Below, in pieces: positions 511 through 31,629 of a stretch of 64,000 bases of DNA. The stretch comes from Nocardioides sp. L-11A (GTDB lineage Bacteria; Actinomycetota; Actinomycetes; Propionibacteriales; Nocardioidaceae), in assembly GCA_029961745.1 (NCBI GenBank), contig CP124680.1, positions 4,402,001 to 4,466,000 on the forward strand, written 5' to 3'. Position 1 is the first letter of the stretch; every line of letters starts with the position of its first letter. A program made the position numbers and the translations under genes. A model generated the notes under the pieces. It did no database searches. It saw only the letters and a program-made list of their open reading frames with translations, and was not told the origin of the DNA.

Positions 511-804
511 GTGGAGCTCCGCGACGACCAGCCGACCCAGCACGAGATCGGCAGCCGGACCTACCTCATCGCGCCCGTCGAGCCGCTCGACGTCGACGGC
601 GTCCGGACCGTCCAGGTCGGCACCGCGCTCTTCCTCGTCGCCTTCGTCGGCCTGCTGCCGTTCTACGGTCGCCTCGAGGAGGACGGCCGCACCTGGCTGC
701 TGTGGATGTGCCTGACCGGCGTCGGGCTCGGCCTGCTCGGCACGGAGTACTGCAAGCGACGCCGCCAGGCCCGCGCCGAGCGCGACCACGACGCCCATGA
801 GTGA
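511..804 (+). CDS. DUF2530 family membrane protein
   Basis: 97 residues. An N-terminal cytoplasmic segment is followed by two hydrophobic helices (about residues 38-55 and 63-82), then a basic tail (CKRRRQARAERDHD). This matches the small actinobacterial DUF2530 family; no biochemical function is known to me. The GTG start is supported by a TANNNT box 6 nt upstream. The last 8 nt overlap the start of the methyltransferase gene, so the two are probably translationally coupled. Confidence 0.8.
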   Translation: MELRDDQPTQHEIGSRTYLIAPVEPLDVDGVRTVQVGTALFLVAFVGLLPFYGRLEEDGRTWLLWMCLTGVGLGLLGTEYCKRRRQARAERDHDAHE

Positions 805-1426
805 GCCCACCGCGCTGCCGCCGACCCGCTGGGCCCTCGGCGGGCCCCGCAACGGCGGCTACGGCGACCGGTTCGCCCAGCTCATCGCCGAGGGGGCCGA
901 CGTGGTCGGTGAGGCACGGCTGGCCGACACCCTGGTCCCCCGCGGCGCGGCGATCCTCGACGCCGGCTCCGGCATGGGCCGGATCGGCGCCCACCTCCGC
1001 GCCCTCGGGCACCGGGTCACCGCCGCCGAGCCCGACCCCACCCTCGTCGAGCAGTCCCGGCGCACCTACCCGGACCTGCCGGTGCTCCCCCTGGAGATCC
1101 TCGCGCTGACACCCGACGCGCTGGCCACGGCCGCCGCACCCCCGTCGTACGACCTCGTGGTCTGCGTGGGCAACGTGCTCACCTTCGTCGCCGAGGGCAC
1201 CGAGGTCGCCGTCCTGGAACGCCTCGGCTCGCTGCTCGCCCCCGGCGGTCGGATCCTGGTCGGCTTCCACCTGCAGCAGGGGCCGAGCACGGCGCGGGTG
1301 TACGCGCCCGACGAGTTCCTCGCCGACGTCGACGCAGCCGGGCTCGTCGTCCAGCACCGCTTCGGCGGCTACGACCTGCGCCCGGTCGACGATCTCTACT
1401 CGGTCGCCATCCTCAGCCGGGCCTGA
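797..1426 (+). CDS. Class I SAM-dependent methyltransferase
   Basis: 209 residues. The Rossmann-type SAM-binding motif is visible as ILDAGSGMGRIGAHL (motif I), with the acidic residue ending strand 2 in VTAAEPDP and a motif IV-like YDLVVCVGNVLTF. No substrate-recognition domain is recognisable, so the target (small molecule, RNA or protein) is open. It overlaps the upstream DUF2530 gene by 8 nt and is followed by the palindromic repeat element, which separates it from the convergent DUF3027 gene. Confidence 0.85.
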   Translation: MSEPTALPPTRWALGGPRNGGYGDRFAQLIAEGADVVGEARLADTLVPRGAAILDAGSGMGRIGAHLRALGHRVTAAEPDPTLVEQSRRTYPDLPVLPLEILALTPDALATAAAPPSYDLVVCVGNVLTFVAEGTEVAVLERLGSLLAPGGRILVGFHLQQGPSTARVYAPDEFLADVDAAGLVVQHRFGGYDLRPVDDLYSVAILSRA

Positions 1427-1440
1427 ACGGGCGACCACGC

Positions 1441-1635
1441 TTGTAACTAAGGGTTACAGCACGAAAACCGGTGCAACAACGCCCGGGCAGTGGTCGTAGC
1501 GCCCGGGTAGATGACCCCACGGTGTCGGTCGGCCCATGGGAGCGTCGGCGGACGACCGAGCGCGTCTACCCGGGTGCTGTTGTTACTACCCGGGCGTTGT
1601 TGCACCGAAAAACGTGCTGTAACCCTTAGTTACAA
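1441..1635. repeat. Palindromic repeat element, copy 1
   Basis: A 195-bp non-coding element bounded by perfect 23-bp inverted termini at 1441-1463 and 1613-1635. Each terminus contains its own small palindrome, TGTAAC-N5-GTTACA. Inside, the arms pair again (1469-1487 with the complement near 1588-1606) through GGTGCAACAACGCCCGGG, followed by a further CCCGGGTAGA block. Arms are built from roughly 20-bp units centred on CCCGGG. It lies between convergent genes, so it could act as a bidirectional terminator. A second copy with the same ends but different internal units is at 29565-29769. I see no coding capacity or transposase. Confidence 0.85.
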
Positions 1636-8748: not shown

Positions 8749-8760
8749 CGATGTCCTAAG

Positions 8761-8920
8761 CCTGGATCCGTGGATGGCCACCTACTACGCGACACTCCAG
8801 CGGCGCGTTCGCGGCGTTGCGGACGCTCAACAGTGCAACCAGACTGCCCTCGCGCCCGCGCCTTGCGACCACACCCCTGGAGTGCCGCTCGCGACGGCGC
8901 CCATCCACGGATCCAGGCTA
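8761..8920. promoter_or_regulatory. Divergent promoter region with 19-bp inverted repeat
   Basis: The sequence CCATCCACGGATCCAGGCT is present on the plus strand at 8902-8920 and as its inverted copy at 8760-8777, the same distance upstream of each divergent gene. The remaining 120 bp holds further partial symmetry (CACTCCAG and CTGGAGTG) and no open reading frame. The repeats sit where -35 elements would be, so a shared regulator or a duplicated promoter is likely. Confidence 0.6.
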
Positions 8921-12906: not shown

Positions 12907-12963
12907 CGCAACTACCGAATTTGTCGTTGATCCGCCGTTACGGCGACAAATTCGGTAGTTGCG
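12907..12963. terminator. Perfect 20-bp palindrome between convergent genes
   Basis: CGCAACTACCGAATTTGTCG (12907-12926) is repeated as its exact complement at 12944-12963 around a 17-nt loop. The stems are AT-richer than the surroundings. It sits between XPB (ends 12896) and lon (ends 12975), so it is the best candidate for a bidirectional terminator. No U-tract follows on either strand. Confidence 0.65.
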
Positions 12964-29508: not shown

Positions 29509-29530
29509 CCGTCCCCCTCCGCCCATTTTG

Positions 29531-29544
29531 TTAACCTTAGTTAA
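29531..29544. promoter_or_regulatory. Palindrome upstream of the BASS transporter
   Basis: TTAACCTTAGTTAA, 22 nt upstream of the symporter start. It resembles the TGTAAC-N5-GTTACA ends of the neighbouring repeat element, which could mean shared recognition or simply a degraded copy. Confidence 0.4.
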
Positions 29545-29564
29545 GCATATGGCCGGGCGGATGC

Positions 29565-29769
29565 TTGTAACTAAGGGTTACCGCACGAAAAAGGCGCCAC
29601 AGCACCGAGGTAGTAGCCACAGCACCCGGGTAGATCACTCGGGGGGCGTCGACCCATGACCGCGCGGACCGACCGGGCGACTACCCGGGCGCTGGGACTA
29701 CCACCCGGGTGCTGTGGCTACTACCCGGGTGCTGTGGCACGCGAATTCGTGCTGTAACCCTTAGTTACA
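29565..29769. repeat. Palindromic repeat element, copy 2
   Basis: A 205-bp element whose ends (29565-29587 and 29748-29769) match those of the copy at 1441-1635 with single differences. Its arms contain 20-bp units of the form CACCCGGGTAGTAGCCACAG, about two on the left and three, inverted, on the right. Copy 1 uses CAACAA where this copy uses GCCACAG, and in each copy both arms carry the same version. It lies downstream of the chorismate mutase gene and upstream of the symporter gene, both on the minus strand. No ORF. Confidence 0.85.
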
Positions 29770-29783
29770 TGGGCCGAGCGCGC

Positions 29784-31584: not shown

Positions 31585-31629
31585 CTACGGCCCGGGAAAT
31601 GCGTGTGCAACGCATTTCCCGGGCCGTAG
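31585..31629. terminator. Perfect 20-bp palindrome after trpB2
   Basis: CTACGGCCCGGGAAATGCGT (31585-31604) and its exact complement (31610-31629) flank a 5-nt loop, 35 nt after the trpB2 stop. A very stable hairpin without a U-tract; likely terminates trpB2 before rtcB. Confidence 0.7.

Follow-up and report, generated by a model that had tools for sequence, protein, structure and literature searches.

The 197-bp palindromic block at positions 1440–1636 of the window (that is, of the whole 64,000-nucleotide stretch analysed) is one copy of a dispersed repeat family. It is probably a solo of a dispersed system in which the protein P0001 binds the ends and inner boxes, synapses and cuts, and in which the repeat is copied into, or kept at, the ends of genes. 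The gene enclosed by identical ends is the key to the family. At one locus (L009), the element's own ends tightly bracket a single gene, P0001, and only P0001 and overlapping frames lie between those ends, in agreement with the original prediction that the element lacks a transposase gene.

Copy 1 separates two convergent genes, lying between their stop codons, and some relatives have an element-free site. The block had been placed at 1441–1635 with 23-bp inverted ends; the block and the perfection of its ends are real, but the coordinates are 1440–1636 (193 bp from TGTAACT to AGTTACA) and the ends measure 24 bp. Among perfect inverted repeats spanning <300, no other in the window is as long. 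As predicted, each end contains a small palindrome, TGTAAC-TAAGG-GTTACA (left, TGTAACTAAGGGTTACA, 1442–1458, plus strand; right, 1618–1634, minus strand), and the 17-mer end motif occurs four times in the window at up to three mismatches, with 0 expected. The predicted pairing of the inner arms through CCCGGG units is also borne out. Each arm carries two CCCGGG-containing 18-bp boxes spaced 20 bp, namely left box 1 (GCAACAACGCCCGGGCAG, 1473–1490) and left box 2 (1493–1510) on the plus strand, and right box 2 (1566–1583) and right box 1 (1586–1603) on the minus strand. The 89-nt arms are 76% complementary, and the single-strand DNA fold of copy 1 exceeds shuffles in stability by 13 SD. The centre, or loop (1511–1565), has no conserved boxes; in the gene-bearing copy L009, the gene occupies this place. 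Mechanical open reading frames run over the edges of copy 1. The upstream gene that converges on it (797–1426, plus strand) is presumably methyltransferase-like.

Copy 2 (29564–29771; 204 bp from TGTAACT to AGTTACA) has the same plan and lies between two tandem genes according to a composition caller. Its left end palindrome (29566–29582, plus strand) has one mismatch and is followed by box 1 (29596–29613) and box 2 (29616–29633) on the same strand. The right side, on the minus strand, carries an extra box 3 (29681–29698) in addition to box 2 (29701–29718), box 1 (29721–29738) and the end palindrome (29753–29769). CTTAACTAAGGTTAACA (29529–29545), immediately beyond copy 2 and close to where a minus-strand gene starts, differs from the end motif at four positions; it may be a site for a regulator or the relic of an old end. 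Three more perfect inverted repeats with arms of 19–20 bp are present in the window. Those at 12907–12963 and 8759–8919 could be solos of other families, and that at 31585–31629 looks like a plain hairpin.

The family extends well beyond these two copies. The window's genome (5.68 Mb, one contig) contains 20 paired copies of the element, with none for the reversed-pattern control; the end motif with the following NGCACG occurs 20 and 18 times on the two strands at up to two mismatches (control, 0). Exact paired ends number 17 pairs in this genome and 16, 8 and 15 in three relatives, and are absent from the other 143 of the 147 genus genomes searched. With a looser motif, pairs are found in 13 of the 147, at 1 to 24 each, and all reversed controls give 0. 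The arm consensus of long copies (60 arms) is TGTAACTAAGgGTTAC...GC.ACAgCgCCCgGGTAG, with the box present twice. The suggestion that two copies define a repeat family, and not an ordinary terminator, is thus upheld by paired copies in the genome itself and in three relatives. The searches returned nothing that points to a remnant of a known insertion sequence or integron: the element has no match in Rfam, and PF01797 (Y1 transposase) at E 0.001 is found in none of the 13 solo-bearing genomes, while the control is positive in 5 of 14.

Several individual copies deserve description. In the 79-bp class (for example L023, 501–579), the centre contains a recurring asymmetric GGTTATCCACCAC..TTTGGG stretch on either strand; TTATCCAC resembles a DnaA box. 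At L010 (540–1860; G000:C1:5127142-5128456), a complete 194-bp solo is followed by two genes, presumably MarR-like and dioxygenase-like, and then, immediately downstream of the stop codon, by an isolated right half-end; a composite unit or a half deletion is possible. At L011 (527–4377; G000:C1:454526-458376), two genes, which we assume to be MMPL-like and TetR-like and which may be cargo, are enclosed over 3.85 kb by a 95-bp element and a left half-end. A lone right end at L020 (676–692) lies near an apparent tRNA 3′ end, as judged by eye, and a tandem repeat.

The AlphaFold model of P0001 (pLDDT 93) predicts an AbiEi-like DNA-binding domain joined to a Vsr/I-Bth0305I-like nuclease fold, in which D244 and E253 are the putative active-site acids. 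The same two folds, AbiEi-like and I-Bth0305I/Vsr-like, are predicted in two proteins that share 28% identity. P0001 has no match in Pfam, and sequence profiles miss its nuclease fold, which rests on predicted structure. PADLOC AbiEi models match P0001, the best over residues 5–176 (E 4e-9), covering the AbiEi part only. The AbiEi of Streptococcus agalactiae is described in PMC3985639 as a repressor that binds paired 23-bp inverted repeats; it is therefore reasonable to suppose that the N-terminal domain of P0001 reads the ends. At least 616 homologues of P0001 and at least 638 of its paralogue P0122 are on record, and the named ones are labelled hypothetical, AbiEi family or DUF559 domain-containing.

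Homologues of P0001 are bracketed by palindromes of their own. As a bracketing score, we take the best inverted match between the two flanks of each homologue. In named genomes, 14 of 17 homologues are bracketed with scores of 44–130, against a maximum of 43 for 304 same-size windows elsewhere in those loci; the misses are L045, at a contig start, L047, and L044, which has runs of N. Among genus loci, 27 of 31 are bracketed by family-specific inverted palindromes with scores >43. These 31 comprise L030 and the 30 with loci from the 95 matches listed, with at most 14 candidates scored per genome, and the set shares several genomes with the 17, so that the two are not independent. Of the four genus misses, L078 contains runs of N, L086 is palindromic on just one side, L092 shows a weak but visible pair (38) and L096 has no two-sided palindrome. 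A further 18 loci are mostly distant (about 25–36% identity bar three loci; L030, at 41%, is repeated from the 31). Thirteen of them score at least 60 and two reach 44–49 with repeat units, against a maximum of 30 for 90 mismatched pairs of equal flank size from the phylum sample; L160 has a one-sided palindrome only, and L151 and L159 cannot be placed. In the phylum sample itself, counting the window's genome, 8 of 149 genomes have a P0122 homologue at E 1e-15. Of ten loci in the other genomes, five are two-sided (38, 41, 50, 86 and 139; mismatched pairs, maximum 30), two are one-sided (L206 and L208) and three are neither. Bracketing is weaker outside the genus than within it.

The distant paralogue at L033 is flanked by a different palindrome, which has 43 copies in the window's genome at up to three mismatches (control, 0), and the L031-type palindrome has at least one further copy there. 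Therefore, the window's genome holds several nuclease–repeat pairs. At L127, L137 and L139, sites in G140 and G014 that are orthologous to L018, L032-like repeats (CGACCCGGC..) lie where the window's genome has a 79-bp solo, and different repeat families may share sites.

The gene stays in place while its ends change with it. Eight P0001-clade loci share both flanks, 19 other loci are mutually linked by shared flanks (single linkage) and three are unlinked, indicating that the bracketed gene is not itself a frequently moving transposon. Within the flank-linked group (n = 16), the two ends of one genome match with a median of 86, whereas ends compared across genomes have a median of 17, and none of 240 comparisons reaches 86. 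Both ends have therefore changed in concert. In addition, end similarity tracks protein identity (r = 0.54, reached in 0 of 2000 permutations) over 26 of 30 loci, with L078, L086, L092 and L096 dropped. Co-evolution of protein and repeats is well supported.

The solos follow the gene as well. A homologue of at least 59% identity is present in 14 of the 147 genus genomes, and solos occur in 12 of these 14 as against 1 of the 133 others (Fisher 9e-15, a value that overstates independence among related genomes). The two exceptions, G120 and G116, have homologues of 59–60% and no matching solo pair; in G116 the gene's own ends start AGTAACT, which the search pattern misses. G014 has a 92% homologue and only one matching solo pair. 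In G042, where all homologues are distant, there are ten solos (L190–L195, six fetched) of 82 or 101 bp without a close cognate gene; they are either orphan repeats left after gene loss, or their gene is undetected. Of 113 pairs counted in seven genomes, 49 solos were fetched, and in 43 of them, ties counted, the ends go with the clade of gene ends present in the same genome, a result reached by 23 of 5000 label permutations. Fifteen solos of G081, where the gene ends read as N, and of G042, which has no cognate gene, were left out; they match G035-type ends, 14 alone and one tied. In G086 there are two genes, each with its own kind of ends; of the eight solos fetched from this genome, six go with one kind and two with the clade of the other.

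Between the same convergent genes as at copy 1, only 6 bp are found in G014 and 4 bp in G135, and the element is present in G140 (192 bp) and G034 (193 bp). Ten further alignable relatives lack the end motif at this site and show either a gene end that is shortened or 16–659 bp of different sequence; L112 is uninterpretable in this comparison. Ten other solos were compared with six relatives. At five (L012, L015, L016, L024 and L025), a relative has the flanks joined or nearly so, relatives have other sequence at L018 and L023, and L013, L014 and L026 give no usable flank pair. At L015, the element measures 226 bp in the window's genome, 203 in G140 and 70 in G083, and is absent in G014 and G086. 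The boundary reads C-W-TGTAACT, with the C in 97–99% of 70 elements. Over the same 70 no target duplication is seen: beyond CW..WG, direct flank identity is 0.28–0.41, and no length from 2 to 12 is prominent.

The absence of target duplication bears on the reading of the elements as MITEs moved by an unrelated transposase, for example of the DDE type, with the AbiEi–nuclease gene a passenger or captured regulator. The terminal inverted repeats and subterminal boxes do resemble transposon ends, and ends or half-ends also bracket other genes at L010 and L011, so that cargo is possible. Nevertheless, there are several families of P0001-type protein, each between different palindromes, and the ends co-diverge with the protein; we regard the MITE reading as unlikely. 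The tests made also go against a DDE insertion sequence, since a target duplication and, between the L009 ends, a transposase gene are both absent. IS1272, as described in PMC5678879, inserts without target duplication, as do the elements here, and uses inverted-repeat sites as targets; unlike these elements, it is an insertion sequence that carries its own transposase gene.

The lengths of the solos are helically phased. The main lengths are 70, 78–82, 90, 100–101, 120, 183, 192–195, 203–205, 213–214, 225–226 and 234–237 bp, and lengths of 93, 95 and 106 bp, one each, are off phase. Over 113 elements in 11 genomes (from 154 looser-motif pairs counted, G035 and G135 excluded), the best period is 10.35 bp (R = 0.82), which 2 of 4000 nulls equal, with the qualification that copies at orthologous sites are not independent. 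The 27 distinct lengths give R = 0.64 (1 of 4000 nulls), and the 34 long solos alone give a period of 10.65 bp with R = 0.91 (0 of 5000 nulls). Centre-to-centre distances are mostly near whole helical turns. In the L033 family, which differs in sequence, five palindrome pairs lie exactly 62 bp apart, the centre distance of the 79-bp class. The lengths look as though the two ends were required to face the same side of the double helix. Such phasing would be expected if protein attached at either end had to make contact across duplex DNA; a hairpin of single-stranded DNA would have no need of it.

Arms pair nearly equally well within one copy and between copies. Pairing is higher within than between copies in four of seven length classes (70, 0.61 versus 0.50; 80, 0.89 versus 0.86; 82, 0.80 versus 0.76; 205, 0.73 versus 0.68) and lower in the other three (79, 0.39 versus 0.61; 194, 0.66 versus 0.69; 204, 0.59 versus 0.64). 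This speaks for half-sites more than for a stem under strict selection, without being decisive.

A second alternative holds that the elements are structural terminators or regulator sites selected at gene ends, P0001 being a mere repressor of the AbiEi kind. The orientation of the flanking genes, which the original prediction had proposed to record, agrees with it: according to a crude codon-composition caller, convergent genes flank 39 of 69 elements, tandem genes 27 and divergent genes 3, compared with 14 convergent and 12 divergent for 300-nt bins of the window. The strong hairpins, the slightly better pairing within copies in four of the length classes and the described repression and inverted-repeat binding by AbiEi (PMC3985639) point the same way. 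However, the other three classes show the opposite, near-identical copies occupy many sites in single genomes, presence and absence differ between relatives, and a repressor needs no conserved nuclease-type domain, which makes this a decidedly unlikely account. Still more doubtful is a role in defence or genome surveillance, in which the nuclease would use the palindromes as self marks or decoys, restriction-like without a methylase: the PADLOC match (E 4e-9), the predicted Vsr-type fold and the retention of the gene at conserved places agree with it, but that match is confined to the AbiEi part, a second gene is absent within the element, and the gene's own bracketing repeats and the helical phasing are left unexplained.

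We return to the synapsing and cutting system, for which we infer binding, synapsis, cleavage and mobilisation by P0001. The 197-bp block would be a non-autonomous solo, the P0001 gene lying at another place in the genome. In all likelihood P0001 recognises the CCCGGGTAG boxes as well as the end palindromes (TGTAAC..GTTACA), and it would join both ends on double-stranded DNA, so that lengths fall in whole helical turns. The Vsr-like domain would then cut DNA, and repair-driven copying would place the repeat at gene ends or maintain it there, the targets perhaps being hairpin sites. The AbiEi–nuclease would be vertically inherited, and would recognise, pair and spread or maintain its palindromic repeats.

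The closest known arrangement is that of the REP/RAYT systems, in which paired inverted REPs are named REPINs. As described in PMC2817692 and PMC8266576, the RAYT gene is flanked by two inverted palindromic repeats and mostly present in single copy, intergenic repeats are scattered, gene and repeats co-evolve, and repeat abundance tracks the presence of the cognate gene. Likewise, P0001-type genes lie between two inverted palindromes in the 27 of 31 and 14 of 17 loci drawn from partly shared genomes, and the repeats follow the cognate gene (12 of 14 versus 1 of 133) and co-evolve with the protein. The gene is also long fixed in place, as PMC8266576 says of domesticated RAYTs. In contrast to RAYTs, P0001 is a predicted AbiEi–Vsr-like nuclease and not a Y1/HUH transposase, and the phased lengths suggest a duplex rather than a single-strand substrate. 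PMC2817692 confines RAYT systems to gammaproteobacterial and later lineages, and the hosts here are Nocardioides-type Actinobacteria. REP palindromes have a GTAG or CGTC tag at their foot. The ends here start CWTGTAACT without one; the inner boxes end in GGGTAG, a resemblance that may be chance. With PF01797 found in none of the 13 solo-bearing genomes and other folds predicted for P0001, we reject membership of the REP/RAYT systems.

Two further comparisons concern the protein. Its catalytic domain is predicted, from models, to have the fold of the EDxHD homing endonuclease I-Bth0305I and of Vsr; unlike these, P0001 also has an AbiEi-like domain and lies between palindromes with many solos, and no intron or interrupted conserved gene is seen. 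PADLOC models and the predicted fold liken P0001 to the AbiEi antitoxin of type IV AbiE systems, from which it differs by its extra nuclease-type domain. An AbiEii-like toxin frame is absent within the L009 element, where reading frames were judged by eye, and a toxin–antitoxin pair is rejected for that copy.

On balance, we lean slightly towards an independent REPIN/RAYT-like world, in which several paralogous families of AbiEi–homing endonuclease per genome each build and keep their own repeats at gene ends by phased duplex synapsis. Our literature search found no description of such a system, and this is apparently an undescribed route by which bacteria spread short repeats without a normal transposase. 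By its enzyme class and its duplex, phased signature, the system could be categorically new; by architecture alone, it could be a variant of the REP systems. If the reading is true, each bacterium would carry several nuclease–repeat pairs that evolve as locks and keys, and the spread of short repeats in bacteria would be the work not of HUH enzymes only but also of a restriction- or homing-type nuclease fold, apparently acting on duplex DNA. The hundreds of P0001 and P0122 homologues on record gain a testable role, and the many natural protein–site pairs, co-diverged at shared genome places, offer material for working out how domains of the AbiEi type recognise DNA.
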